64,000 bases of DNA from a virus, in IMG/VR virus record IMGVR_UViG_3300036832_000548, positions 18,592 through 82,591 of that record; one strand, 5' to 3'. Shown one piece after another: positions 3,062-17,641 of this stretch; positions within the stretch are counted from its first letter, which is position 1, and the number at the start of each line of letters is the position of its first letter. The notes under the pieces are model-generated. The model worked only from the letters and a program-made list of their open reading frames with translations, did not search any database and was not told the DNA's origin. A program made the translations under genes and the position numbers.

Positions 3062-3148
3062 TGTGCGGCATCTTGGCTGGAATAACAGCCTGTTTTTCAA
3101 GGGGGTAACTACGACGGTAACCAGAGGTTGACAAGAGGAACACACACA

Positions 3149-3514
3149 ATGGACGACACGACCAATAAACCCGCCCCGGAAGAGGCCATCGATTTCGAGA
3201 GCAGCCCGCAGCTCGATCAGGAAGCAAACCTTGAGCACACGTTGTCGAAGCCCATCCAAGCGCATGGCGAGGAGTTGCGCATTCTCAGATGGCGCGAGCC
3301 AACCGGAGCTGACATCGAGCGCGCAGGCAATCCCATCGTGATCGATTTCTTTGGCGAGAAGCCCACCCTGACATTCAACGAAAAGAAGATGGGCGCGATG
3401 ATCTCCGCGCTCTGTCAGATCCCGCCCTCGAGCGTGCGCCAGCTAACCGCAGCGGACTGGAATTCCATCGCTTGGAAGCTAGTCCGTTTTTTTATGCCGC
3501 AGGGGGCGGCGTAA
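3149..3514 (+). CDS. Tail assembly chaperone, Mu gp41-like
   Basis: This 121-residue acidic protein lies immediately before the tape-measure genes, the position of tail assembly chaperones in contractile and flexible tails. It contains the chaperone-type stretch LRWREPTGADIERAGNP (about 47-63). The start at 3149 follows an AAGAGGAA ribosome site. Near the 3' end, seven T residues set in CGT-TTT-TTT-ATG make a -1 slippery site; the shifted product would be about 180 residues. In the assembly model, the short and long forms coat the tape measure during tail building. Confidence 0.75.
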   Translation: MDDTTNKPAPEEAIDFESSPQLDQEANLEHTLSKPIQAHGEELRILRWREPTGADIERAGNPIVIDFFGEKPTLTFNEKKMGAMISALCQIPPSSVRQLTAADWNSIAWKLVRFFMPQGAA

Positions 3515-3693: not shown

Positions 3694-5877
3694 ATGCCTG
3701 ACCAGACAGTCGAGATCAAACTAGTATTGCGGGACGAGCTGTCCAAGCAGCTTGCCCCTATTGTTGCGCAGGTCAGGCAGCTCAATCAGGCGATCGATAC
3801 TACCCGCCCGCAACAGCACATGGAGCGGTTCGGCGGGGCCGTCCAGGGCGTTCGCCGCGAACTCTCCGCACTATCGCAGATCACTTTCGGCGGGTTGATC
3901 GGCGGCGGCATTGTCGCTGGCTTAATGGCCACGGCAAAGGCGCTGGGCGACATGGCCAACCGTGGCCTCCAGCTCCGCTACAGTGCCGACGCGCTGGGCG
4001 TCACCACCGGGATGCTCAATCAATTTTCCGACGCCATGATGGGGCTCGGGAAATCGCGTGAGGCAGGTCAAGCAAGCATCGAGGCAGCAACCAAGTCGCT
4101 GCGCGAGCTACAGATCGAAGGAGGACAGTCAAAGCTTTTCACTGAACTCGAGCGCGCCGGCGGCGAAACCGGCCAACGCCTCGCGCAAGAACTGGCGAAG
4201 GAGATCGCTGGACCGCGCGGCCTGCAGGGCGGTCTTGAGTATGCGATGCGCCGCATGGCGGGGATGCGACAGGAGTCAGCCGCCAAGTTCGCAGAAATTC
4301 TGGGGCTGGGGCCGGGGTTCGGTCGGGAGGCCGCGCGGGATTATCTGCAAGTCCTCGGGCAGCTCCCCAAGCGACTCGAACTTTCGCATCAGCAGCAGCT
4401 CGAGCTGGCAAAGGCCAATGCGAGCCTCGGCATCTCTTGGGACAATATCAAGACTACGCTGGCCGGATCGCTGCTCCCGATCTTCGCGCAGCTCACTCAC
4501 ACGCTCGATCAGTTCCTGCAATCCAAGGCCGGTCAGGAATTCACCAAGCAGCTCGAATCATGGGGCCGCGAGATGAATGCCGCGCTCAAGGAGTGGCTTG
4601 AGGGCGGCGGCTTAACGCGACTGACCGAAACGCTCGGGACAGCGGTTGGCACGTTGAGGCAGGGATTTGAGGCCGCTGACAAAGTGGTCACGGCCATGGG
4701 AACGGATTGGGGGCACGTCCTAGGTGCGCTTGGGATCGCGGTGTTCGCCTCACAGTTGGCGGGCATTGCTTCTAGCCTCCGATTGATTGGAGGCATTCCC
4801 GGCATCGCCTTGATACTTGGTAGCCTCGCGCTCATCACAAAGCCAAAGATCGAGGACATCAAAGACCCGGCAAAACGTGCGCAAGCGGAAAAGGACGTAG
4901 CGGGCGGCGCAGCACAACCCGGCGACCCGTGGGCACTTTGGAATATTCTCAAGGATCTGTTGAAAGGCAACATCGATTGGAAATCGATGTTGCGCGAAGA
5001 TCCGCTCCTTCCCTTTCCGGGCAGTGGGCAATCCAAGACTCCATCAGAGAAGCGCGCCGACGACGCAGCAAAAAAGAACGCGCAACAGCGCATCACCGAA
5101 GAGTTCAGAGATCTCGATTACGAACTCCAGAAGCTCAATCAATACCTCGCGCCGGGTGGACCAGAAGGCAGCGCAGGATCAAGCGGTTTCCAACTGCCTC
5201 CGTATCAGCAAAAAGATTTCACGTTCTATTATCCCGGTGCCAGCGGTGCGAAGGGAATGGAAGGACCGTTTGAAACCGCGCGAGCGGGATTGGACAAGCA
5301 ATTCACTCCTAAAACACTTGATGATTTTCGGTTGGGGCTCACGCCCGCTGTTACGGTTGCTGGACCTGCGAGCAAATTGGGACAGTCGATCAACTTAGGC
5401 GATATCGAATATCGCAGCCCGATTGATGGCAAAGTCTATCAGGTCCCTAATGTGCCGGGTTATGTGCATGATCGCGGCGGGGCATTCACAGAAGATAAAC
5501 CAAACAAACGCGACATCGCCGTTGGCGATTTTCGTGGCCTCAATCCTGTCACCGGCTTGCCATTCAATGACGCTACCGCAGAAGCGTTCAGCCGCGGGAA
5601 CAAGCAATTTGCCGCCGGCACATTTCCAACAGCGTCAGGCTACGATGAAGCGGGCTTTACCGGCGAAGGCGTTGTCGGCACCGATCCGATCACGTCGCAT
5701 CTCGCCACGCGCGATTCTCAATCCGTCAATGGCACCGCTACCGTCGACATAGACGTTGGCGGCATGACGCAAGCGATGCGAAATCCGAATGACCTGTTCA
5801 AGCCGCAACCACTCGGCGGTTCAGTGCAAATGCAAAACGTGACGCGCCCAGACAACAATCCTATGAGTTTCCAGTAA
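3694..5877 (+). CDS. Tape-measure protein 1
   Basis: This 727-residue protein is the first of three consecutive paralogues. All start with an acidic-basic segment (VEIKLVLRDELS here) followed by a hydrophobic stretch (about 64-85), helical middle, and a conserved block around residues 245-285 (SWDNIKTTLAGSLLPIF, then TLDQFL). A second long hydrophobic zone is at about 339-380. The protein likely sets tail length and sits inside the tail tube. Unlike the two that follow, it has no enzyme domain; its C-terminal third is low-complexity and lacks the DPSGG tail motif. Confidence 0.8.
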   Translation: MPDQTVEIKLVLRDELSKQLAPIVAQVRQLNQAIDTTRPQQHMERFGGAVQGVRRELSALSQITFGGLIGGGIVAGLMATAKALGDMANRGLQLRYSADALGVTTGMLNQFSDAMMGLGKSREAGQASIEAATKSLRELQIEGGQSKLFTELERAGGETGQRLAQELAKEIAGPRGLQGGLEYAMRRMAGMRQESAAKFAEILGLGPGFGREAARDYLQVLGQLPKRLELSHQQQLELAKANASLGISWDNIKTTLAGSLLPIFAQLTHTLDQFLQSKAGQEFTKQLESWGREMNAALKEWLEGGGLTRLTETLGTAVGTLRQGFEAADKVVTAMGTDWGHVLGALGIAVFASQLAGIASSLRLIGGIPGIALILGSLALITKPKIEDIKDPAKRAQAEKDVAGGAAQPGDPWALWNILKDLLKGNIDWKSMLREDPLLPFPGSGQSKTPSEKRADDAAKKNAQQRITEEFRDLDYELQKLNQYLAPGGPEGSAGSSGFQLPPYQQKDFTFYYPGASGAKGMEGPFETARAGLDKQFTPKTLDDFRLGLTPAVTVAGPASKLGQSINLGDIEYRSPIDGKVYQVPNVPGYVHDRGGAFTEDKPNKRDIAVGDFRGLNPVTGLPFNDATAEAFSRGNKQFAAGTFPTASGYDEAGFTGEGVVGTDPITSHLATRDSQSVNGTATVDIDVGGMTQAMRNPNDLFKPQPLGGSVQMQNVTRPDNNPMSFQ

Positions 5878-8775
5878 ATGGTAGCTCGCAAACCACAAAC
5901 CATCGAGGTCGTCGTTCGCGACGAGGTGACGCGCGCTCTTGAGCGTGCGCGCTCGCATATGCGCCAAGTCGGTGGCGGCAAGGAAACACTGGGCGGCATA
6001 ACGGGCGCGATCAAGGGACTCGAGGGTGGCATCGAGTCAGTCGCACGCGGCATCAGCCGCGAGTTTGGCACGCTGGCCCGCATGGCGGGCGGCAGCTTGC
6101 TGGGTGCTGGTTTTGTCGCTGGCCTCAACAGGACGGCGCAGGCGCTGGGCAATGTGGCGCGGGCCGCAACGCAGCAGCACTATCTCGCTGAACAAATCGG
6201 GCTGACGACGCAGCAGCTCGCAAATCTCACGGCTCGCGGTCGCGCGTTCGGCTTGGGTGTTGAGCAGACCACGGCTGGCATTTCGAGTCTCTCCAAAAAT
6301 CTGCGCGATCTGAAGATGCTCGGTCAGAACGCGCCCATTTATAAGTCACTCACGGAAGCGGGCGGCGGTAGTGGTCAGCGGTTTGGCGACAAGCTCATAG
6401 CAGCGGTCAGGGGACCTGGCGGCTACGACGCTGGCGTCCATACGTTTATCAAACTGATGTCGGAGACGAACGCTCAGGCGCAGAGCAAGCTCTCTGATAT
6501 GTTTAATCTAGGTTCGATTGCGTTCCGCGATCTCGATTCTCTTGGTCTGGGCGATCTTCCAAAGCCGATTGTATTGTCTGATTCGGCAGCGCGCGATCTC
6601 ACGCGCTCGACGGCGCTTGCAGATCAGTCGTGGACAAATATCAAAAACACTGTCGGCGGCGCGTTGATGCCGGCGGTCGAACAGTTGGCGCGAACGCTTG
6701 ACGCATTCCTGCAAGGACCTGGCGCAGGAATGCTCAAACAGTTTACAGACTGGGTTTCCAAGATCAACATCCCATGGGGAGCAATCGGCACCGCGCTGGC
6801 GAGTGCAGCCGGAATATTAAGCATGGCCTTCATCTGGGTGAAGAAGGCAATCGTGGAGGTCACTCCGATAGTCGATAAAATCGGCGGCTGGGGACCGCTT
6901 CTGCTCACGGCGGGTGCCGTGATCCAATACGGCAACGTCAACAAGGTCACGCTGAGCTTGTATGTCATCGGCGGTGCGTTGACCGTCATTGGCGAGCACG
7001 ACTGGGTACTCAAAGCACTCGCTGACGCCAGCAGATTGGCAATGGGGACGGGCAAACTGTCATCGCAGTTTGGATCGCCCTATTCGAGGAACATCGAGGA
7101 CCGTCGCGGGCAGCCGTCCATACAGATGCCGCCGAATGCCAAGGCCATGCGCGGCGGCTACAACCTCATGAGCAGCACCACTGGCTCGAGCGACGACGAT
7201 GACGATATCACCAATGCGTTGAGTAATCAGCTGCAAAGCACCAGCGCGCAAGTCATGCAGCTGGCCAATATCGTGGCAACGCAGGGACTGACTCCCGATC
7301 AGCTCGGCGGCGGGACTGCAGGAGGAGGACAGATCCGCATTCCCAGCGCTGGTGGCGGCGGTGGCGGGTACACGCCGCGCCCGCGAGCTGCACCGCCGCC
7401 TTCGACACCACGGACAACAACGCCACCGTCGACGCCACCGTCGACGCCGCCAGCACCGCCTCCATCGACGCCGCCAGTAACACCACCAACGCCATCTTCA
7501 ACACCGTCGAGGCCATCCTCGACAACGCCTCCAGGGCCGACACCGGGACCAACACAGCCGCCGCCCGGAGGTACTAATAAGGGCGTGTTGCTGTTCGCGC
7601 ACGGCCTTACCGGACGCTATGCGGGGATGCACGGCAGCATCGCGCAAGTCGAAGCAGACGTTAAGCGATACGCGGCAGCGCACGGCTATAGCAGCGTTGA
7701 GTTCATTTACGGCTCGCCCGCCGAACAAGAACGGCAAATGCTGGATCGGGTTAAGCGCGGAGGCGTCGGCGGCCTTTTGGGCTTTTCGGCTGGCGCTGGT
7801 CCTGCGCGACGGGTCAGCAATGCGACCGGTGTGCCGGCGGTTACGACCGGAGCACCAAGAGTTCCAGGCGACGTGAGCCCCGCGAAACGTCACATGGACC
7901 AAATCCGCGTGCTGGCGGAACAGGAAGAAAGGAAACGACTACAACAAAATCCGACCGCGCAGCCACAAGTGCCAACCGCGAACCCGCAACAGCCGACCAC
8001 CGGGCGGTCGGGATTGGTTTCGCCGGTCACCGGATCATTCGGTGAGAATTCGTCCAACCCATACGGCGCTGCTCGCAAGGGTGGGCGACCGCACTCCGGC
8101 GTCGATTGGCGCGCGGAGAATGGGACGCCAGCGGTTGCGATGATTGGCGGTGTCGTTACGCACGTCGGCTACGATAGAGGCGGTTACGACAACTATGCGG
8201 TGGTGAAGGGTGACGACGGCGTCTATCGTCGATATGCCTATCACGGGCGATCGCTTGTCCACAAAGGACAGCGGGTCGAGCAAAAGCAACCGCTTGGCAT
8301 CATTGATCGGCGCCATCTGCATTACGAAGAAATCCACCCGAAATTGGCGAATGGCAAACCGAATCCGGTGTATGCGGAATTTGAGCGGAATGGCAACGCC
8401 AGCACCAGCTATCAACGCGGCACGTCCGATCCGTCGCAGACGCTCAATATGCCATATCGGACCAGGGTCACCGCAGGCGAACCGCTTGGCGGCCAACCTG
8501 CAACGGCACAGCCTGCGCAAACGTCGCCAATCGTCTATTCGAACGAGGACGAGATCGAGCGGCTCAAATATAAAAAAGAATTGGACGAACAATATCCGCA
8601 GGGCGGCTATACGCCGATTCCAAAAGGTCGCATCAGCGGCCTTGTCAATCTCCAGATCAATGTGCGCGGGCCGCGCGGCGTGAAAGTATCTGGCGAAGGT
8701 GCCGGGGTCGTAGGGCCTGCGAGCATCGACCGATCCGATCCCAGCGGCGGCATCGAAGGCTTCTCACCGGCATAA
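5878..8775 (+). CDS. Tape-measure paralogue 2 with hydrolase-like and M23 domains
   Basis: This 965-residue protein begins one base after the previous stop. Residues 1-310 align with the other two tape measures. A Pro/Thr/Ser-rich linker (about 495-560) leads to an alpha/beta-hydrolase-like segment (about 567-660) with FAHG and the nucleophile-elbow pattern GFSAG. Then comes a LytM/M23 peptidase domain (about 716-830) with HSGVDW and HLHYEE, matching the HxxxD and HxH zinc ligands of that family. It ends in DPSGGIEGFSPA. The M23 domain probably cuts peptide cross-links of the wall during DNA entry. The hydrolase-like domain has no clear precedent here. Confidence 0.8.
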   Translation: MVARKPQTIEVVVRDEVTRALERARSHMRQVGGGKETLGGITGAIKGLEGGIESVARGISREFGTLARMAGGSLLGAGFVAGLNRTAQALGNVARAATQQHYLAEQIGLTTQQLANLTARGRAFGLGVEQTTAGISSLSKNLRDLKMLGQNAPIYKSLTEAGGGSGQRFGDKLIAAVRGPGGYDAGVHTFIKLMSETNAQAQSKLSDMFNLGSIAFRDLDSLGLGDLPKPIVLSDSAARDLTRSTALADQSWTNIKNTVGGALMPAVEQLARTLDAFLQGPGAGMLKQFTDWVSKINIPWGAIGTALASAAGILSMAFIWVKKAIVEVTPIVDKIGGWGPLLLTAGAVIQYGNVNKVTLSLYVIGGALTVIGEHDWVLKALADASRLAMGTGKLSSQFGSPYSRNIEDRRGQPSIQMPPNAKAMRGGYNLMSSTTGSSDDDDDITNALSNQLQSTSAQVMQLANIVATQGLTPDQLGGGTAGGGQIRIPSAGGGGGGYTPRPRAAPPPSTPRTTTPPSTPPSTPPAPPPSTPPVTPPTPSSTPSRPSSTTPPGPTPGPTQPPPGGTNKGVLLFAHGLTGRYAGMHGSIAQVEADVKRYAAAHGYSSVEFIYGSPAEQERQMLDRVKRGGVGGLLGFSAGAGPARRVSNATGVPAVTTGAPRVPGDVSPAKRHMDQIRVLAEQEERKRLQQNPTAQPQVPTANPQQPTTGRSGLVSPVTGSFGENSSNPYGAARKGGRPHSGVDWRAENGTPAVAMIGGVVTHVGYDRGGYDNYAVVKGDDGVYRRYAYHGRSLVHKGQRVEQKQPLGIIDRRHLHYEEIHPKLANGKPNPVYAEFERNGNASTSYQRGTSDPSQTLNMPYRTRVTAGEPLGGQPATAQPAQTSPIVYSNEDEIERLKYKKELDEQYPQGGYTPIPKGRISGLVNLQINVRGPRGVKVSGEGAGVVGPASIDRSDPSGGIEGFSPA

Positions 8776-8778
8776 AAA

Positions 8779-11292
8779 ATGGCTCAAGGCACCAGATCAC
8801 CCACCGTCGAGATCCTCGTCAGGGATGAGGCTACGGTTGCGCTCGAGCGCGAGCGCGCACGCATCCGAGCGGCTGCGGCCAATCATGAGCTATTTACTGG
8901 ACTCGAGTCAGCCTTCAAAGGATTCGAAGGCGCAATCCAGTCGCTGGCGCGGACGGTCAATCGTGAATTTAGAACGATATTGGGACTAACCGGCGCGGGC
9001 GGCTTTCTCGGAGCTGGCCTTGTCCTCGCCATCGACAAGACGGCACAAGCCGTCAGCGGCCTCGCGCGTTCCGCTGAGGAGAACAGATATCTAGCCGACA
9101 CGCTTGGCGTGACCACCGCGCAGCTCAACAACTTGGTTGCGCGCGGTCAGGCGCTCGGCATGAGCACGGAGCAAAGCAGATCAGGCATCGAGAGCCTGCT
9201 CCGCGCGATGCGCGATCTAAGACTGATGGGGCAGGATGCGCCGGTCTATAAGGCGCTGGTGGAGGCTGGCGGGGCGAGCGGCCAACGTGTTGGTGATCAG
9301 CTCATCGCTATGGTGAAGGGACCGGGCGGCTACGAGGCAGGCATCCGTCAATTTGCCAAACTGCAATCGGGGATGAACCTCGATGCCCAGCGTAAATTGT
9401 CGGAAATTTTCGGCACAAGTTCACTTGCATTCCGCGATCTCTATACCGTCAAGAATATCCCTTCGATTATCGATCTTGCTGGTCCACAGGCGCGCCGTCT
9501 CAGCATCGCGATGGCGAGTCTGAATGTCTCGTTCGATAATTTGAAGACCACGCTTGCTGGCGCGGTGATGCCAGCGTTCGAAGGATTATCGCAAACACTC
9601 GACAAGTTCTTGCAGGGTCCTGGCAAGAAGATCGTTCAGCAATTCGCGGATTGGCTGTCAACGCTCAATATCCCGTGGGACAGAATCGCCAAAGGCTTGG
9701 TGGGCGCGGTCGAGGCGCTGCGAGACATTTTTGCATGGGGCAAGAAAACCGCAGAGGATCTCGAGCCGATCATCGGGAAACCCAAATTGTGGGGACCCGT
9801 ATTGAAAAAGATGGCTGATCTGGTCATTCCCGGATTCGTCAATCATCTGCTGACTTTTGCCAAGGCATTGATGGCCGTTGGCCAGCATGCGGATGTGATC
9901 GCGAAGATAACCGCAGCCGTCCGCGGCGGCGAAGCTCCCGCGCCGCCAACTGCGAAGCCATCAGCATCACCGTTGCTGCCCATGCCGACGCCGCAACAAC
10001 TGCGTGGCACTGGCCGCACGCAAGGCCAGAGTCCGTCAGCGCCGCGAGCGATGGGCCTGCTATCGACTGGTGGTGGTTATACTCCCGGTGGAGGCGAGGA
10101 CCCGCAAGATACCGATCAACTGAGCGAACAGGTACACGCGACATCGCGGCAAGTGTTGCAGCTCGCGAACTACATATCTTCGCAGGCTCTCACCACGGAC
10201 GTGAGCGGTGCGGGCGGATTGGCTGGGCTGGCTGGACAAATCCGCACGGGCAGAGTTGGCCGCGCTGGCACAACAATCGGCGGCGGTGGTGGAGGCACGC
10301 GCGGCGGTGGTGGTGGCCGACGCGGCGGTGGTGGAGACAGTGGCATCCCTGACACCGGGACAAACGCAACCGGCACCACGAAAGGCGTCACGTCAGAAGG
10401 CATGGCACTGCTTGACACCATCGCGACTTGGGAAGCGGAGCCAGCTTTCAAAAACGGTCAGCGCGCTGGCTGGAATACAATGATTGGCAACGTCCGCTTC
10501 GATCCGAATACGGACGAGCACCCTAAAAGAGCCTATCCGTGGCTGCGCGGTTATGTTGGGGGGGCTGGTGTTTCCTATGCGTCTGGTCGCTATCAGGAAA
10601 CGATCAACACCTATTATGAGAACGTCGCGCGCAGCAAGCGATTGCACCCCGGCATGAAGGTTTCGGGCTGGTCGCCAGAGGCCCAGAACATTCGCAACTG
10701 GGACAAGGCACAAGATATTTACGCGCGCCGTTATAGAAATCTCGGCATTCCAAGTCTGACCGGCAACTTGCAAAAAGATTTGGAAGCCAACAAAAACAAC
10801 CCAGCAATGATTGGAAGGATGGCGCGGGCACTTAGTGGTGAATGGACGACGGCCCCTGGTGGACACGAACGCTCAAAACAAACGGGCAAGAGCGAGAGCC
10901 AATATTCAACGCAATATCTAAAAATGCTCGCGAGGACATCGCAAGATCCCGCGCTGGCCAATCAAAGCGATCCTGCCTCGCCGTCCTCATCGTCAGCATC
11001 GTCATCGCCAACAGCGCCGACATCGCCGCCTGCGCCAACGTCACCAATTGTCTGGTCGAACCTGGACGAGATCGCGCGTCTTGAGCGGGAAGCACGGGAG
11101 GCGGCAAGCCTACCAGCTGGCGGGTTCACCCCAATTCCGCGGCAAGGCGGCTCGAGCAGGATCAATCTGAACGTCAACGTGCGCGGGCGCAGTGCAAGGG
11201 TGTCGTCGGAAAGCAGCGGCGACATGGGATCGGCAACGATCAGCCGGGACAAAGACCCAAGCGGCGGCATCGAAGGCTTCTCACCGGGATAA
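8779..11292 (+). CDS. Tape-measure paralogue 3 with GH104-like lytic domain
   Basis: The 837-residue product shares residues 1-300 with the two upstream paralogues, including the NLKTTLAGAVMPAFE block. A Gly-rich linker (about 490-525) precedes a domain at about 541-710 that resembles lambda endolysin (GH104 transglycosylase): LLDTIATWEAE supplies the likely catalytic Glu and SYASGRYQ matches the family AGRYQ motif. It ends in DPSGGIEGFSPG. The expected role is local peptidoglycan cleavage from within the tail. Confidence 0.8.
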   Translation: MAQGTRSPTVEILVRDEATVALERERARIRAAAANHELFTGLESAFKGFEGAIQSLARTVNREFRTILGLTGAGGFLGAGLVLAIDKTAQAVSGLARSAEENRYLADTLGVTTAQLNNLVARGQALGMSTEQSRSGIESLLRAMRDLRLMGQDAPVYKALVEAGGASGQRVGDQLIAMVKGPGGYEAGIRQFAKLQSGMNLDAQRKLSEIFGTSSLAFRDLYTVKNIPSIIDLAGPQARRLSIAMASLNVSFDNLKTTLAGAVMPAFEGLSQTLDKFLQGPGKKIVQQFADWLSTLNIPWDRIAKGLVGAVEALRDIFAWGKKTAEDLEPIIGKPKLWGPVLKKMADLVIPGFVNHLLTFAKALMAVGQHADVIAKITAAVRGGEAPAPPTAKPSASPLLPMPTPQQLRGTGRTQGQSPSAPRAMGLLSTGGGYTPGGGEDPQDTDQLSEQVHATSRQVLQLANYISSQALTTDVSGAGGLAGLAGQIRTGRVGRAGTTIGGGGGGTRGGGGGRRGGGGDSGIPDTGTNATGTTKGVTSEGMALLDTIATWEAEPAFKNGQRAGWNTMIGNVRFDPNTDEHPKRAYPWLRGYVGGAGVSYASGRYQETINTYYENVARSKRLHPGMKVSGWSPEAQNIRNWDKAQDIYARRYRNLGIPSLTGNLQKDLEANKNNPAMIGRMARALSGEWTTAPGGHERSKQTGKSESQYSTQYLKMLARTSQDPALANQSDPASPSSSSASSSPTAPTSPPAPTSPIVWSNLDEIARLEREAREAASLPAGGFTPIPRQGGSSRINLNVNVRGRSARVSSESSGDMGSATISRDKDPSGGIEGFSPG

Positions 11293-11309: not shown

Positions 11310-11864
11310 TTGGCTTCCATACGTGATAATCATAACGTCTGGCGCGACAATCTGGTGCCCGCCTCGTTTCGCGGCGCGGTCTTTCATGTGGAGACGAGCG
11401 CGCGATCGAGCGGACGCAGGACAGTCGTCCATGAGTATCCGAAACGGAATAACCCCTATGCCGAGGACATGGGCCGCAGCGCGATCCGCTGGCAGATCAC
11501 GGGCTATTTGATCCTGCGCGACAAGGGCATTCGTGGCAACCTGCTCAGCCAGATTGGAGACATGATCAACGCGCTCGAGGCGGACGGCCCTGGCGTTTTG
11601 ATTCATCCGACGCTGGGCGAGATGCTGGTCCAGTGCGAGAGATATTCGTACAGCGACAAGCGCACGGCCGGCGGTTACATCGAGTGGGATATGCAGTTCG
11701 TGGAGGCGGGATCTGGGATATTGACTGCAGTGATCAATACTGCAGCCATGCTGGTCATGACCTCGACCGCAGCTGAGACAAGCGCAGCGACGGCAATCAA
11801 AAGCGATACAGCTCCGCTGCAGAGCACGATCAAACCTCAACCCAGCCAAACCGTAGCGGCATGA
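11310..11864 (+). CDS. DNA circularisation protein N-domain, Mu gp43-like
   Basis: The 184-residue protein starts at a TTG and contains the DNA_circ_N pattern: VPASFRGAVFHVE, then HEYPKRNNPYAEDMG, then GPGVLIHPTLGEM. In Mu-like phages this domain begins a baseplate/tail protein of about 490 residues. Here it stops at 184 residues and the next gene appears to carry the rest. The alanine/threonine-rich C terminus may be a linker. Confidence 0.8.
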   Translation: MASIRDNHNVWRDNLVPASFRGAVFHVETSARSSGRRTVVHEYPKRNNPYAEDMGRSAIRWQITGYLILRDKGIRGNLLSQIGDMINALEADGPGVLIHPTLGEMLVQCERYSYSDKRTAGGYIEWDMQFVEAGSGILTAVINTAAMLVMTSTAAETSAATAIKSDTAPLQSTIKPQPSQTVAA

Positions 11865-12532
11865 GCACGCCATCTGAACTAGCTGAAATCAACGGCATCG
11901 TTAGTCGGATAACTGCGAATTTGATGCGGTTTAACGGCATGCGCGGTCAGACCGGTTCTGCGTTGCGTCAAGCCTGCGGCGATCTTAATGCACGCACCAG
12001 CACCTATGTGGTTGATGGAACATTCGCCAATCGCTTGTTGAACTGCTTTCTCCTCGCAACCGTGGCCGGCATTAGTCTTGATTGGATGGACCAGGTCGTT
12101 GCTGGACTTATTGCTGAACAGCCGACCACTCTGATGTCGACCAGTGTCGTACAGAATGCGTTGATCATGGCTATCGCGCAGGAAGGGCGGATCATTGCAG
12201 CGACAGTCTATGTCAGTCGCGATGATGTCGATGCGACCATGCAACGGATGAATAATTGGTTCGAAACCATCAAGGACATCATCGCGGATACCATGAGCGG
12301 TCCAGGCTACGAGGCATTCATCACGCTTACGGGATCGATCACCCGGCATCTGACAGACAGCGCGCGACCGTTGCCGCGGATACTACGCTATCAGATGCCC
12401 ATGGTGATGCCGGGGTTGTTGGCCAGCCAATACATCTACGGCGACGGGAGCCGGGATGAAGAACTGGCGGCAGAAAACAAGGTCGTCCATCCCCTGTTCA
12501 TGCCACTGGCATTGCGGGCCTTGAGCGCGTGA
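11861..12532 (+). CDS. Probable C-terminal half of gp43-like protein
   Basis: This 223-residue protein overlaps the previous gene by ATGA. Its last residues (AAENKVVHPLFMPLALRALSA) match the usual end of Mu gp43-type proteins, which place a conserved HP.F near the C terminus. The pair therefore looks like a split gp43 in two coupled genes, although an independent protein cannot be excluded. Confidence 0.6.
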   Translation: MSTPSELAEINGIVSRITANLMRFNGMRGQTGSALRQACGDLNARTSTYVVDGTFANRLLNCFLLATVAGISLDWMDQVVAGLIAEQPTTLMSTSVVQNALIMAIAQEGRIIAATVYVSRDDVDATMQRMNNWFETIKDIIADTMSGPGYEAFITLTGSITRHLTDSARPLPRILRYQMPMVMPGLLASQYIYGDGSRDEELAAENKVVHPLFMPLALRALSA

Positions 12533-12539
12533 GGCAATC

Positions 12540-13688
12540 GTGCCGTTCAGAGCTTCAGAAATCGCAGTCATTACTGTCGGTGGCATGGATTTCAAGGATT
12601 GGGAAAATGTCACGGTCAAGATGGTGGAAGGAGAATCGAACCACAGTTTCAAGCTGTCGGTGTCGGAAGGAGCCCCGCTGACCAAAGATTTTGGGAGTCT
12701 GAAGATCAAGCCAGGGGATCATTGTACGATCACGCTGGGCGGTGAGCTGGCCATTTCTGGATACGTCGAGACGCGGCAAGTCGGCTACAACGCAACACAG
12801 CATGGCATTCAGATCATTGGGCACAGCTACAATAAGGCGGCGGCTGATGGCTCCGTCATGCACAAGACGATGGAGTTCAAGAACCAATCGCTGCAACAAA
12901 TCGGGACGCAACTCCTGAAACCGTTCGGCATCCAGTTTGTCCCTAAGACGGCAATGCCTACCAAGCAATTTCCACGGGTGAACGTGGCGCCAGGTATGAG
13001 TGCGTGGCATCAACTCGATATCCTTGCGCGCCAGCGGCAGGTGACCCTAGGGACTGACAAGCAAGGCAACGTGACAGGACGGACGTTTTTTCAGGGCGGC
13101 GGCGATGCGCTGGTCGAGGGCGTAAATATTCTTGATGGTCAAGAGGTCATGACCATGAACATGGGCGACGGGCCGCTCAATGAGAAAAGTCAGACACCCG
13201 GCAGCAATTTCAATTTTGGGCGCGAGGCCGCAGGCCCAACGTCAAAAACCGATAGCCGACCACTGGGTGAGTCTGGGAAGGGCGTATATGCGCCGCAGGT
13301 TGGATTGACTGAGCATCACGGCGACAAGGACGACACCAAGGCGCGCGGCAATATGGAACAACAACGCCGCGGCCAAGAGCAGTTGCAAGTGACCATAGTG
13401 GTGCAGGGGTGGATGAGACCGTCAGGCGGCCTTTGGGAGCCGGGGACGAAGGTCATGGTGCAATCGCCCATGCTGTTGGTTAGTGAATCGCTCAAGCTCA
13501 TGTCAGCGACATTTACGCAAGACAACAAGTCAGGGACGCGCACGACGCTGGAGCTCACGCGCGAAACCGGCAGCGAACAGGACGCCAAGGACGGGAAGGC
13601 ACCTTACAACATGGATCCGAAAACCCCTGGCGGCGTGGACGATCCAAGCGATCCGTCCGGGGGCCGACCGGGATTCTCGCCGGGATAA
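12540..13688 (+). CDS. Baseplate hub, Mu gp44/P-like
   Basis: This 382-residue protein follows gp43 and precedes the spike. The N terminus has a GMDFKDWENVTVKM segment, then a G-rich hub-like fold with SGYVETRQVGYNATQHGIQI, typical of Mu P and T4 gp27-type hub proteins. The start is GTG. The C terminus is SDPSGGRPGFSPG, the same tail motif seen on two tape-measure proteins. It probably forms the central hub ring between tube and spike. Confidence 0.8.
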   Translation: MPFRASEIAVITVGGMDFKDWENVTVKMVEGESNHSFKLSVSEGAPLTKDFGSLKIKPGDHCTITLGGELAISGYVETRQVGYNATQHGIQIIGHSYNKAAADGSVMHKTMEFKNQSLQQIGTQLLKPFGIQFVPKTAMPTKQFPRVNVAPGMSAWHQLDILARQRQVTLGTDKQGNVTGRTFFQGGGDALVEGVNILDGQEVMTMNMGDGPLNEKSQTPGSNFNFGREAAGPTSKTDSRPLGESGKGVYAPQVGLTEHHGDKDDTKARGNMEQQRRGQEQLQVTIVVQGWMRPSGGLWEPGTKVMVQSPMLLVSESLKLMSATFTQDNKSGTRTTLELTRETGSEQDAKDGKAPYNMDPKTPGGVDDPSDPSGGRPGFSPG

Positions 13689-13704
13689 TGGGAGACATCG
13701 ACCG

Positions 13705-14616
13705 ATGGTGATGCGAAGCAACAGCGGCGACTCGGCTAACCGCATTCAAACTCATGCGTCCCGTGCGACTTTGCGCGAACTCGATTCGAGTCCGTTTTGG
13801 AGTGAGACAAAAGAACTCGATGTGATGGACAGCGAGACACATACCGGCGTCGAATTCGCTGAGAATTATGGGGGGACTTGTGTGCCGGCGAAACAGGACC
13901 AAGACGATCAGCAGCAACAACAAGGCCAACAGGACACTGGGGGTGGCAGCAGCGGTCCCGGAGGCGGCGGCGCTGGCTCGCAGGGCGAGGAAGGCCAACA
14001 GCCGCAGGGCGATGCCGCTGAGGCCATCGTGCTCTATCTCAATGGCTCGCGCAGCCATCCGGTCATCATATCGATGGGCGATCGGCGTCATCGCCTGATC
14101 GGATTAGAGGAAGGCGATGTTGCCAATCATCGGCTCCAGAGCGACCGGCAGCAATTTCTTCTGTCAAGCGACGGCACCTATCTATCGACGCGCGATGACA
14201 AGGTAATGCGGATCGCGCTGGTGCCGTCAGCGGATACTGGCACGCCGAAACCGCAACAGCCATCTGCGACACAAACAGCGGCGAGCGGAGGCAGCAGCGG
14301 CAGCTCGAGCAGCGGTGCAGGTCAGCAGAACCAACAAAAAAAGTACGGCCAGAAATCAGCCAAGAGCGACAACCAGAGTTCAAAGATCAGCATTCAACAA
14401 ACAAAGGACGCGACGACCGTTCAGCAAAACAGTGCATATTCACAGCAGGGGTCGGATCACAGCACGGTTTATTACGGAGACAAAACCAAGTCAGCGCAGG
14501 CGACCACCGACCACGCGCATTTGCGCACGGGCGGCAATCGCATATTCACCGACAGCGGTGGGTGCTGGTCGACGGTGCCGATCCAGCAAAAGAAGGATGG
14601 CTACTGCAAAGAATAA
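13705..14616 (+). CDS. Baseplate spike, Mu gp45-like
   Basis: This 303-residue protein carries the gp45 pattern: an ELD...VMDSETHTGVEFAENYG stretch, then AEAIVLYLNGSRSHPVII and DRRHRLIGLEEGDV, where family members fold into the OB-like base of the spike. Gln/Gly-rich linkers lie at about 68-105 and 200-235, much longer than in Mu. The C-terminal half includes THR/SER-rich sequence and DHAHLRTGGNRIFTD. A short upstream frame (MGDIDRW then stop, at 13688) resembles the usual gp45 N terminus in another frame, so the true start may have been lost by a frameshift. Confidence 0.7.
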   Translation: MVMRSNSGDSANRIQTHASRATLRELDSSPFWSETKELDVMDSETHTGVEFAENYGGTCVPAKQDQDDQQQQQGQQDTGGGSSGPGGGGAGSQGEEGQQPQGDAAEAIVLYLNGSRSHPVIISMGDRRHRLIGLEEGDVANHRLQSDRQQFLLSSDGTYLSTRDDKVMRIALVPSADTGTPKPQQPSATQTAASGGSSGSSSSGAGQQNQQKKYGQKSAKSDNQSSKISIQQTKDATTVQQNSAYSQQGSDHSTVYYGDKTKSAQATTDHAHLRTGGNRIFTDSGGCWSTVPIQQKKDGYCKE

Positions 14617-14620
14617 TCCC

Positions 14621-15808
14621 ATGCGCTGGTGGCTCAACACGGACGATCCGCAGATATTCGCGGTCGACAATGCGTCAGTCAGCGGGATGGATTTCTCGAC
14701 GCTGCCGATCAATTCGTGGATGGTGCAGTGGACGGATGGCAAGGGCGAGATCGAGAACCAGATTGACCCCAACACGAACGACAATGGCCTACGCGCAAGC
14801 TTTATCGATGTCACGCCTTATGCATCATTCTTTCAGCAGTTCCTTACGCTGTTGCCAGGTCTGACACTGGCGCAAGCGCAGAAGGTTCAAACCGATCTGA
14901 TCAAACAAATCTTCGAAAGCAAGCGGCAGGACCCATTTCACTATCCTGTCGCATCTGGGGACTACTCGTGGGACGCATCGGACGAGGCGCTGTTTTCGTC
15001 TCATGGAGCGCAACTACAAAACAATCTTACAGAGATCGGCGCATCCGTTGTCTCCTACACGGCTTCCGCTACCATCACGATTCCAGCGGAGCAGGCGTGG
15101 GTTCGCATGTGGGGCGGATCGGGCGCGTCGGGTGCTGGATCATCTGTGTCTTATTTGATCGGATCGCCGGGTGTTGGCGCACCGGGTTATCTTGAAAAAT
15201 TTCTGACCGGACTCACGCCAGGCCACACGCTCACCTACACGCGCGGCAATGGTGGCGCAGCGACGACAGGAGTGGGCGGCAACGGCACGCCATCGATCTT
15301 GGCGAGTGGCACGCAGACGATTCCTACGCTCACGGCGAATGGAAGCAACGGGACAAGCCTTAACAGCGCTGGCATGTATCCCACACAAGGCAGTGCAGGC
15401 GGGACGGCGACTGGTGGTGACATCAACCGTAAGGGTCAGATGGGAGGGCCGTCAGTTACTCAACAAGCAGATAGTACTGGCGTGTTGGCGCTGTTGTTTG
15501 GAACGGCTGGTCAGACCGGACTGGCGAGCGGCGTTGATGGTTCCTATACTAGCCCCGGCAATCCGGGCAATCCGGGCGGCATGATCGTGTCCTGGGGCAA
15601 CGTCGTCGTCACGACCGGCATGCAATGGATACCGATTGGTGCCAGCGCGCCGGTGGCCGTGACATCGACAGAGCAAACCGCAATTCTCAATGGCATCGCC
15701 GTGCGCACCAACACTCTTGCTGGCACGAAAAATACGAAAGTCGCGCAGGTCGAAGCGCTGACAGTGATCGCAGACGTAATCAATTACGACGTAACTGCGG
15801 GGTGGTGA
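14621..15808 (+). CDS. Glycine-rich fibre-like protein inside baseplate cluster
   Basis: The protein starts MRWWLNTDDPQIF (an alternative in-frame ATG is at 14597, overlapping the spike gene). Residues 1-115 look like an assembly domain; residues about 135-320 are rich in Gly, Ser and Thr with a GGSGASGAGS-type stretch, resembling polyglycine receptor-binding adhesins. It lies between gp45 and gp46, where Mu has no gene, so it may be a baseplate-attached accessory fibre. The function is inferred from composition. Confidence 0.6.
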   Translation: MRWWLNTDDPQIFAVDNASVSGMDFSTLPINSWMVQWTDGKGEIENQIDPNTNDNGLRASFIDVTPYASFFQQFLTLLPGLTLAQAQKVQTDLIKQIFESKRQDPFHYPVASGDYSWDASDEALFSSHGAQLQNNLTEIGASVVSYTASATITIPAEQAWVRMWGGSGASGAGSSVSYLIGSPGVGAPGYLEKFLTGLTPGHTLTYTRGNGGAATTGVGGNGTPSILASGTQTIPTLTANGSNGTSLNSAGMYPTQGSAGGTATGGDINRKGQMGGPSVTQQADSTGVLALLFGTAGQTGLASGVDGSYTSPGNPGNPGGMIVSWGNVVVTTGMQWIPIGASAPVAVTSTEQTAILNGIAVRTNTLAGTKNTKVAQVEALTVIADVINYDVTAGW

Positions 15809-15809
15809 A

Positions 15810-15992
15810 ATGGGCCAAGCATACCGACCCTCATGCGCCCAGTGTGGCTATGAGGCTCACGGCTTGCCGGATCGCAAGCAGGATCTGGTCCAGAAGCATG
15901 TCATGGGCGTGCTGGTCTGGCTCCATTTGCAGTGCGAGCAAATCTATCGACAGAACGCGGCGCCGCCGCCAGCACCGGCACCACAACAATGA
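15810..15992 (+). CDS. Small Cys-containing protein, 60 residues
   Basis: The product begins MGQAYRPSCAQCGYEAHGLPDRK (CxxC) and ends in a Pro/Ala-rich tail. It sits directly after the previous stop and overlaps the gp46 start by ATGA, so it is probably translated. The function is unknown. Confidence 0.5.
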   Translation: MGQAYRPSCAQCGYEAHGLPDRKQDLVQKHVMGVLVWLHLQCEQIYRQNAAPPPAPAPQQ

Positions 15993-16537
15993 CCGATATC
16001 TATCTGCAGGATCGGGTCAGTCTAGCCGGCACGTTCATGGATTGGCTGCAGAACGCTGATGGCTTGTCTGAGGAACAGGAGCTGGCCACGGCGGTGCGCG
16101 TGGCGATCGGTACGGACACCTTGGCCGCGATTGACGATCCGTTGCCTGATCTCGACAGCGAAGATCGCCGCGGCTGGTGGGGGGACTTGGACGCTGAGGA
16201 AATCTGGCAAGGCTGGCCAATAGGCTGCAAGAACTGGCTGCTGTTCCGCGCCAAGATTGCTGACCCTTATTCATGGGAAGGCGCAACCTTGGTGCGTGCC
16301 AAGGCTTACACCCGCCAAGCCCTGCAGCCGTTCATCGATCTGCACATCTGCAGTCGCATCGATGTCGACGCAACGCGCAGCGGTCGCGACCAGATCTCGG
16401 TGAGCGTCAGCATGTATCGCGGACCCAAGCGACTTATCGAGCTGCGCTTCCAAAGTCTGTGGGACGAAATCGGGCGCGATTATGTTCCGGTCGGATCGAA
16501 GGATCGATACGTCACCGGCCAACCCCTTAATCCTTAA
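15989..16537 (+). CDS. Baseplate wedge protein, Mu gp46-like
   Basis: The start MTDIYLQDRV at 15989 gives a 182-residue protein with the gp46 signature: LDSEDRRGWWGD and GSRLWL-like GCKNWLLFRAK, then a run of PFIDLHICSRIDVDATR. It lies just before baseplate J, as in Mu. The start was chosen for its 4-bp coupling with the preceding gene. Confidence 0.8.
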   Translation: MTDIYLQDRVSLAGTFMDWLQNADGLSEEQELATAVRVAIGTDTLAAIDDPLPDLDSEDRRGWWGDLDAEEIWQGWPIGCKNWLLFRAKIADPYSWEGATLVRAKAYTRQALQPFIDLHICSRIDVDATRSGRDQISVSVSMYRGPKRLIELRFQSLWDEIGRDYVPVGSKDRYVTGQPLNP

Positions 16538-16552
16538 TTTCGGATCTATCTC

Positions 16553-17641
16553 ATGCCGTGGACCACACCGTCACTCAAGACGGTCAGGCAGCTTACGCGC
16601 GATGCAATCACGGCCAACCTTTACGGTGCCGTCTTCGTCGGCAACAACGTGCTGCGCGTCATGGCAGACACGATGGCGGGGCTGGCGCATCATGTCCTGC
16701 GCTATATCGATTGGCTCGCGCTGCAGCTCCTGCCCGACACCGCTGAAACAGAATGGTTGGATCGGCATGGTTCCATCTGGCTGGTGAATTCAGATGGCAC
16801 CATCGGACGAAAGCTGGCAACGCTGGCATTCGGTTCCATCTCGGTCACTGGCACACCCGGCGTTGTTATTCCGCTGGGCGCGACTTTGGTCAGCCAGCCA
16901 GCGACAGGCGCTGTCACAAATTACGAGACCATGGAACAGAGCGTTGTCGGCCAGACTTCGACATCGCTCAGCGTGCGGGCACTCGATGCTGGCAGTAACG
17001 GCAACCAGGCCGCAGGCCAGTTCTTGCTATTCAATCCAGCATTGAACGGCGTAGATCCTCCCGCCTCTGTGATTACGATCACGGGCGGCGCTGACGATGA
17101 GACGGACGACGAGCTGCGGATGCGCGTTCTCAAGCGCATACAGCAGCCTCCGATGGGGGGAGATGCCACGGATTATGAAGCGTGGGCCTTGGCTGTGCCT
17201 GGAGTTACGCGAGCATGGGCATTTCCGCTAGAGCAAGGCATGGGCACGGTAACCATCCGCTTCATGATGGACGATCTTCGTGCCGACAATAACGGCTTCC
17301 CCTTGGCGGAAGACGTGACGGCGGTCGAAACCTACGTTGACTCGCAGCGCCCAGTGGCGGTCAAGGACATCTTCGTTGTCGCTCCAATTCCGTTTCCAAT
17401 CGATCTGCGCATCAATCAATTGGTCGTTGATAGTGGCGCTACACGCGAAGCAATCGAGCAATCGCTGGTCGAGATGCTTTTTGAAAAAGCCGTTCCTGGC
17501 GGCACGATATATGCCTCATGGGTCGAGGTGGCCATCGCTGACGCGCTAGGCGTCGATCATTTCGAACTGGTGTTTGCCACACAGGCGATGCCTAGTCCTG
17601 GACACTTGGCAATTCTGGGATCGATCATTTACGCGGGATAA
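16553..17641 (+). CDS. Baseplate J protein, Mu gp47-like
   Basis: This 362-residue protein shows the baseplate-J layout: an N-terminal helical part, LDRHGSIWLVNSDGT, a central GVVIPLGATLVSQ beta domain, then the conserved ITGGADDETDDELRMRV and PGVTRAWAFP segments. It forms the wedge that links the hub to the fibres. Gene order and length match the family. Confidence 0.9.
   Translation: MPWTTPSLKTVRQLTRDAITANLYGAVFVGNNVLRVMADTMAGLAHHVLRYIDWLALQLLPDTAETEWLDRHGSIWLVNSDGTIGRKLATLAFGSISVTGTPGVVIPLGATLVSQPATGAVTNYETMEQSVVGQTSTSLSVRALDAGSNGNQAAGQFLLFNPALNGVDPPASVITITGGADDETDDELRMRVLKRIQQPPMGGDATDYEAWALAVPGVTRAWAFPLEQGMGTVTIRFMMDDLRADNNGFPLAEDVTAVETYVDSQRPVAVKDIFVVAPIPFPIDLRINQLVVDSGATREAIEQSLVEMLFEKAVPGGTIYASWVEVAIADALGVDHFELVFATQAMPSPGHLAILGSIIYAG

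Follow-up and report, generated by a model that had tools for sequence, protein, structure and literature searches.

The phage studied here comes from soil and is represented by an 82.6-kb IMG/VR virus record, of which we analysed bases 18592-82591, a stretch of 64,000 nucleotides hereafter called the window. The window contains three consecutive genes of 727, 965 and 837 residues (TMP1, TMP2 and TMP3), correctly delimited in a preliminary description made from the sequence alone. They are arranged head to tail, the TAA of TMP1 being directly followed by the ATG of TMP2 and the TAA of TMP2 being separated by three bases from the ATG of TMP3, and they are framed by genes encoding a tail assembly chaperone on the left and homologues of Mu gpN and of a gp44/gpP-like baseplate hub on the right (Table 1). 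No fourth copy was found outside the array in the whole 82.6-kb record. Baseplate_J and gp48 genes follow 3′ of the hub gene, and terminase (recognised by eye), capsid, sheath (homologous to annotated sheaths) and tube genes are located upstream in the record. The tail is of the Mu-like contractile type, and we found a single gene each for sheath and tube and a single set of baseplate genes. The gpN homologue is encoded by a pair of overlapping ORFs, each matching one end of phrog_184; the annotation of phiKM1 also shows two genes.

Table 1. Features of the tape-measure array and of its flanking genes (window coordinates).
Feature	Position	Strand	Evidence or remark
Tail assembly chaperone (Phage_TAC_7), left synteny anchor	3128..3514	+	Pfam PF10109, E 1.2e-11
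TMP1, first tape-measure paralogue	3694..5877	+	PHROG tape measure families; BLASTP to TMP2/TMP3; orthologues in L009, L006 and L007
TMP1 N-terminal domain, residues 1-372	3694..4809	+	Profile match 1-370 of 376
TMP1 insert, residues 505-626	5206..5571	+	82% identical in L009
TMP1 C-terminal tail, motif 2 type (LFKPQPLGGSVQM), without motif 1	5731..5874	+	
TMP2, second tape-measure paralogue	5878..8775	+	BLASTP, tree
TMP2 N-terminal domain, residues 1-382	5878..7023	+	Profile match 8-374 of 376
TMP2 segment 565-665	7570..7872	+	Alpha/beta-hydrolase-like by eye (FAHGL, GFSAGA)
TMP2 Peptidase_M23, residues 738-817	8089..8328	+	Pfam PF01551, E 2.4e-14, 53.7 bits (cut-off 28.7)
TMP2 C-terminal tail, motif 1 type (INVRGPRGVKVSG), ends DPSGGIEGFSPA	8530..8772	+	
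TMP3, third tape-measure paralogue, later duplicate of TMP2 type	8779..11292	+	BLASTP, tree
TMP3 N-terminal domain, residues 1-379	8779..9915	+	Profile match 6-375 of 376
TMP3 putative lambda-R/GH104-like lysozyme domain, residues 533-719	10375..10935	+	Profile matches (see text)
TMP3 C-terminal tail, 53% identical to that of TMP2, motif 1 eroded, ends DPSGGIEGFSPG	11047..11289	+	
Mu gpN/DNA circularisation protein, N-terminal half, right synteny anchor	11310..11864	+	PF07157, E 1.3e-24; phrog_184 positions 5-164
gpN homologue, C-terminal half, separate ORF	11861..12532	+	phrog_184 positions 278-401, E 8e-14
gp44/gpP-like baseplate hub, ends DPSGGRPGFSPG like TMP2/TMP3	12540..13688	+	PF22255, PF21683

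Three lines of evidence support the reading of the three genes as tape-measure paralogues, already proposed in the preliminary description: synteny, PHROG matches and Pfam tape-measure models, the last of which match the TMPs of relatives below the cut-off (no significant Pfam TMP match was obtained in the window). TMP1 matches phrog_2276 (4e-11) and phrog_9570 (4e-8), TMP3 matches phrog_2276 (9e-5) and the matches of TMP2 are weak (1e-3). The tape-measure genes of the Mu gp42 type, of SfV (orf14), PG1 and phiKM1 occupy the same slot between the tail chaperone and gpN/gp44, and homology between the N-terminus of the phiKM1 tape measure and the window TMPs is detectable (E 1e-14). However, these phages have one gene each (as seen in SfV, PG1 and phiKM1, the cultured relatives inspected), whereas the slot contains three genes in the window phage and two or three in about half of the relatives found. 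The window genes have no DNA or protein relatives in cultured phages at a threshold of 1e-3. Hydrophobic Gly-rich segments were noticed in the sequences of TMP1 (residues 63-81 and 342-375), TMP2 (303-321) and TMP3 (67-85).

All three copies share an N-terminal domain with 31-46% identity. Pairwise BLASTP aligned TMP1 with TMP2 over 373 columns (31% identity, E 4e-39), TMP1 with TMP3 over 335 columns (32%, E 1e-34) and TMP2 with TMP3 over 473 columns (43%, E 1e-99). The common region, first described as the initial 300 residues, is thus indeed homologous but extends further, to about 370 residues (about 470 for TMP2/TMP3), and the conserved block reported near residue 270 is present at about 250-276, with the pattern S-x-x-N-x-K-x-T ... 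P ... T-L-D-x-F-L-Q. A HMM built from the three N-termini detected close relatives with E values of 1e-35 to 1e-160, the best of about 400 shuffled sequences scoring 0.07. The domain has nearly the same length in TMP1, TMP2 and TMP3 (372, 382 and 379 residues, respectively), and it is full length and homologous in all copies across the whole clade. At some distant two-gene loci, the lengths of the shared domains are unequal, e.g., 425/380 in L091. Covariation of N-terminal length between two copies, the length being measured by the start of the low-complexity linker, was discarded as evidence, since the signal was weak and depended on the method (r 0.38, permutation p 0.02, Spearman p 0.19). 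One could suppose that the first gene alone encodes the tape measure and that the others encode tail proteins that have a domain in common with it but serve a different function, e.g., in the hub or in adhesion, all the more as TMP2 and TMP3 end in DPSGG..GFSPG like the gp44 hub. However, the similarity spans the whole N-terminal region and not one short domain, and matches to PHROG tape-measure profiles extend to TMP3 and, weakly, to TMP2; we regard this possibility as improbable.

Beyond the shared domain, the three proteins carry different modules. The Peptidase_M23 domain of TMP2 has its metal ligands in place, HxxxD (H739/D743) and HxH at 813. The preceding segment of TMP2 (residues 565-665) is conserved in L009 and gave no convincing family match. 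Residues 533-719 of TMP3 correspond to a lambda-R-like lysozyme domain, a moderately supported prediction that is based on profile comparisons: this region aligns with a phage GH104 protein (E 0.01), it is detected by a HMM of seven lambda-R relatives (E 0.0015 for a search size of 100, the best of 500 shuffled sequences reaching 0.15) and hhalign gives it a probability of 81% against the lambda-R profile, with a query profile that included the GH104 protein. In this alignment E552 is opposite the SEG glutamate of lambda R, and the sequence GRYQ at 603 is common to both; unlike the GH104-type endolysins lambda R and P2 K, which it resembles, the TMP3 domain lies within a tail protein and is very divergent. 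Searches of Pfam, PHROG and PDB returned no match for it. The TMP1 insert, replaced by another sequence in L006, lacks a Pfam, PDB or profile match, and PDB searches of the modules gave only chance matches. The likeness of a D-R-G-G-A-F...K-R-D-I stretch in this insert (D593) to 3D/DPBB lytic transglycosylases was seen by eye only; a DPBB assignment was rejected, with no Pfam hit at E 10 and an hhalign probability of 0.1% to the DPBB-like inserts of relatives. AlphaFold models of the TMP3 lysozyme-like domain (pLDDT 39) and of the TMP1 insert (pLDDT 42) were set aside.

In relatives, the paralogues contain at the same place M23, M15, Amidase_2, SLT, DPBB, glucosaminidase, CHAP or phage lysozyme domains in changing combinations, and M15, CHAP or tail lysozyme domains are also found in single-gene relatives. 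The few available cases indicate a tendency for first genes to carry mostly lysozyme, glucosaminidase, SLT or DPBB domains and for second genes to carry mostly M23, M15 or amidase domains. Judging from these sequence comparisons, the copies appear to be tape-measure chains with exchangeable wall-enzyme modules.

The C-terminal tails also differ between copies. TMP2 and TMP3 have in common a C-terminal block of 81 amino acids (53% identical by BLASTP). Single-gene relatives tend to end with motif 1 (VDVNAPRGTKV) followed by motif 2 (LFKxVxxxRxxQM) on one chain; with a strict threshold, both motifs are present in 11 of 26, motif 2 only in 12 and motif 1 only in three. In 29 of the 30 two-gene pairs, motif 1 exceeds 6 bits in at most one copy. 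The within-locus difference in motif 1 score is 12.5, against 9.4 +/- 1.0 for random pairing (p 0.0002, uncorrected for kinship), a test that is exploratory because the motifs were defined after the sequences had been seen. In the clade of the window phage, the first gene has motif 2 without motif 1 and the second has motif 1, sometimes eroded, without motif 2. Motif 1 sits in the first gene in most groups other than this clade, motif 2 is present in both copies in several of these groups, and L084 has motif 1 in both copies. In L188, motif 2 is in the first gene and motif 1 in the other two. As a separate observation, the C-terminal sequence DPSGG..GFSP(A/G) is common to the hub (13650-13688), TMP2 (8740-8772) and TMP3 (11257-11289), and is also found at the end of the hubs of L036 and L102; it may mark a common docking or processing signal.

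Searches against IMG/VR and GTDB genomes with the sheath, the gpN half and the TMP domains as queries yielded about 180 loci. We counted intervals spanning the tail genes through gpN/gp44 after de-replication by sequence. Among the 59 intervals, which were sampled by similarity to the window phage and so do not amount to a census, some singles being near-copies of each other, 27 contain one TMP gene, 30 contain two and two contain three (the window and L188). A third triple, L187, lies outside the count, its left flank being missing; the tandem triples occupy L187:311-8057 and L188:4781-12217 on two distant contigs. In L006, the second TMP-like gene begins directly after the first. An isolate, Bradyrhizobium sp. 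SRL28, carries a two-gene case as a prophage (L091, with the TMP genes at 12602-14998 and 14998-17607 of the locus), and loci with one gene occur in Chelatococcus, Faunimonas and Methylobacterium. These taxa suggest that the window phage probably infects a related alphaproteobacterium.

A phylogeny of the N-terminal domains from the close clade separates 15 first genes from 12 second genes across a single branch (82/85), with mirrored branching orders on either side. TMP2 of the window groups with the second gene of L009 (100/100), whose contig ends inside this gene, and TMP3 is sister to these two (100/100). This topology indicates that the two-gene state is old in this clade: TMP1 and TMP2 descend from one ancient duplication, and TMP3 arose later by copying of the TMP2 type, before the lineage of L009 separated. 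A wider tree, with 98 domains, joins the paralogues of many other loci as nearest neighbours (L158, L139, L156, L035, the L051/L061/L067/L071/L148 group and L120/L126; SH-aLRT at least 95 each), and the second and third genes of L187 and L188 form a younger pair (SH-aLRT at least 95). The well-supported within-locus pairings, at least seven in number, correspond either to recurrent duplication or to homogenisation of copies within one phage. The dN/dS ratios relative to L009 are about 0.22-0.25 for TMP1 as well as for TMP2, and the ratio between TMP2 and TMP3 is 0.22-0.30, with dS near saturation. Duplications do arise in phage genomes, and the record is metagenomic; one could imagine that the copies are recent redundant duplicates or an assembly artefact, devoid of functional meaning. 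However, two-gene arrays occur in about 30 distinct intervals, including that of the Bradyrhizobium isolate, and the divergence of the copies is old, with dN/dS well below 1. Such a reading, already largely refuted by this wide conservation, appears to us highly improbable.

The M23 and lysozyme-like domains, the reciprocal C-termini and the fact that two-copy arrays are as common as single genes among the relatives found favour copies that act together in one tail. We consider it about an even chance that the three TMPs form a heteromeric tape measure of a single tail, which delivers complementary wall enzymes. A single ancestral tape-measure gene would have been duplicated to give three genes of one Mu-like contractile tail, whose products would share the tube lumen as a mixed bundle, each chain consisting, in order, of the N-terminal domain, a Gly/Pro-rich linker, a wall-cutting or other module and the C-terminal tail. 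The homologous N-terminal domains would pack side by side in the growing tube, an arrangement for which they are suited because they are nearly equal in length. Likewise, the reciprocal C-terminal tails suit a division between docking and non-docking chains: TMP1 has the kind of tail that one would expect to dock on the trimeric hub, and TMP2 and TMP3 would have the complementary type. Upon contraction, the chains would exit the tube together and carry the M23 peptidase (TMP2), the lambda-R-like lysozyme (TMP3) and the module of the TMP1 insert into the periplasm at one spot. Co-assembly in one tube, stoichiometry, docking roles and enzyme action are what we infer from these comparisons.

The tape measure of the myophage A-1(L) is mostly arranged as a six-fold bundle, in which only three C-termini are visible, docked to the trimeric hub (PMC10966104). 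The existence of six slots is not certain, since the tape measures of JBD30 and 80alpha are homotrimers and T4 gp29 is listed at three copies. The A-1(L) protein, gp13, belongs to a contractile tail like that of the window phage but is homomeric and encoded by a single gene, the comparison being made by description. With more reserve, we suggest for the family as a whole a heteromeric tape measure with a common ruler domain, several independent duplications and C-terminal functions split between copies; one type would dock on the three-fold hub and the other would fill the remaining places, and extra copies such as TMP3 would widen the set of delivered wall enzymes. Several observations count against a heteromer: the presence of motif 2 in both copies of several groups outside the window clade and of motif 1 in both copies of L084, the near-complete loss of motif 1 in TMP3, the unequal shared domains of some distant loci and the lack of a demonstrable enzyme in the TMP1 insert.

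Another explanation, close to one of the two readings first proposed (one copy measuring length, two being internal cargo), is that TMP1 is the sole ruler and that TMP2 and TMP3 are former tape measures, now ejected as lysin cargo placed in the lumen or the hub. TMP1-type genes retain the LF..QM tail in the window clade, recognisable enzymes are commoner in the TMP2/TMP3 types, and the Sle1 effectors of contractile injection systems are a precedent for cargo derived from tape measures (PMC13277306). Nevertheless, the N-terminal domain is full length in all copies clade-wide, which pure cargo would not need, enzymes are also present in first genes and the order of tail types is reversed in other groups. 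We view this explanation as a less likely alternative, and the version first proposed as incomplete, having been framed without the M23 and lysozyme-like domains, the reciprocal C-termini or the frequency of two-copy arrays.

The other initial reading, that different tails are built, found no support: the copies are head to tail and co-inherited, next to a single sheath, tube and baseplate set. In a related form, each particle would be built on one paralogue, producing tails that differ in length or lysin. TMP2 and TMP3, which have tails of one type and are distinguished mainly by the enzyme module, would fit such alternative use. However, the single tail gene set, the reciprocal C-termini, which suggest that neither type is complete alone, and the tight gene spacing, which suggests joint production, leave it only a slim chance.

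Lysin modules in tape measures are already known. In mycobacteriophage TM4, in phiCbK (CHAP) and in enterococcal phages, a peptidoglycan-cutting module is present in the tape measure, as here (PMC1796659, PMC3556154, PMC10194240), but on a single chain, whereas in the window different modules are carried by paralogous chains. The Sle1 effectors are likewise related to tape measures, with exchangeable C-terminal modules inside a contractile machine (PMC13277306); this likeness is drawn by description, and they belong to actinobacterial contractile injection systems, which are not phages and occur in another host class. A limited search of the open-access literature returned no report of paralogous tape-measure genes in one tail, and the papers that speak of two tape measures use the words in another sense. 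Each tail is regarded as having one tape-measure gene, yet about half of the relatives found here carry two or three. The repeated duplication of TMP genes in these relatives suggests that the inner rod of the tail can be a mixture of proteins. One could use the family to test how many chains occupy a tube and in what way the six-fold symmetry of the tube is fitted to the three-fold hub, and it offers a natural series of lysins delivered through the tail. If the proposed heteromer is real, it would resolve the six-fold/three-fold mismatch of contractile tails by genetic means and would also serve as a swappable rack for lysins.

Other features were noticed among the structural genes of this phage and its relatives. 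Two capsid-like genes are located upstream of the window in record G000, one encoding a stand-alone protein (L005:1997-3310, 437 amino acids) and the other a protease-capsid fusion (L005:7403-9694, 763 amino acids); they are 31% identical over 346 amino acids (E 4e-30), and capsid-like pairs or remnants are also present in L010, L025 and L030. The head-tail region includes a gene for a collagen-like protein of 467 amino acids with GXX repeats (L005:11567-12970), also found in L006 and L007. Finally, ORFs resembling HNH endonucleases by eye are interspersed among the structural genes, on the minus strand at L005:5106-5585 and L005:6896-7888, and at L007:7469-8134 and 8877-9401, their sites differing among relatives.
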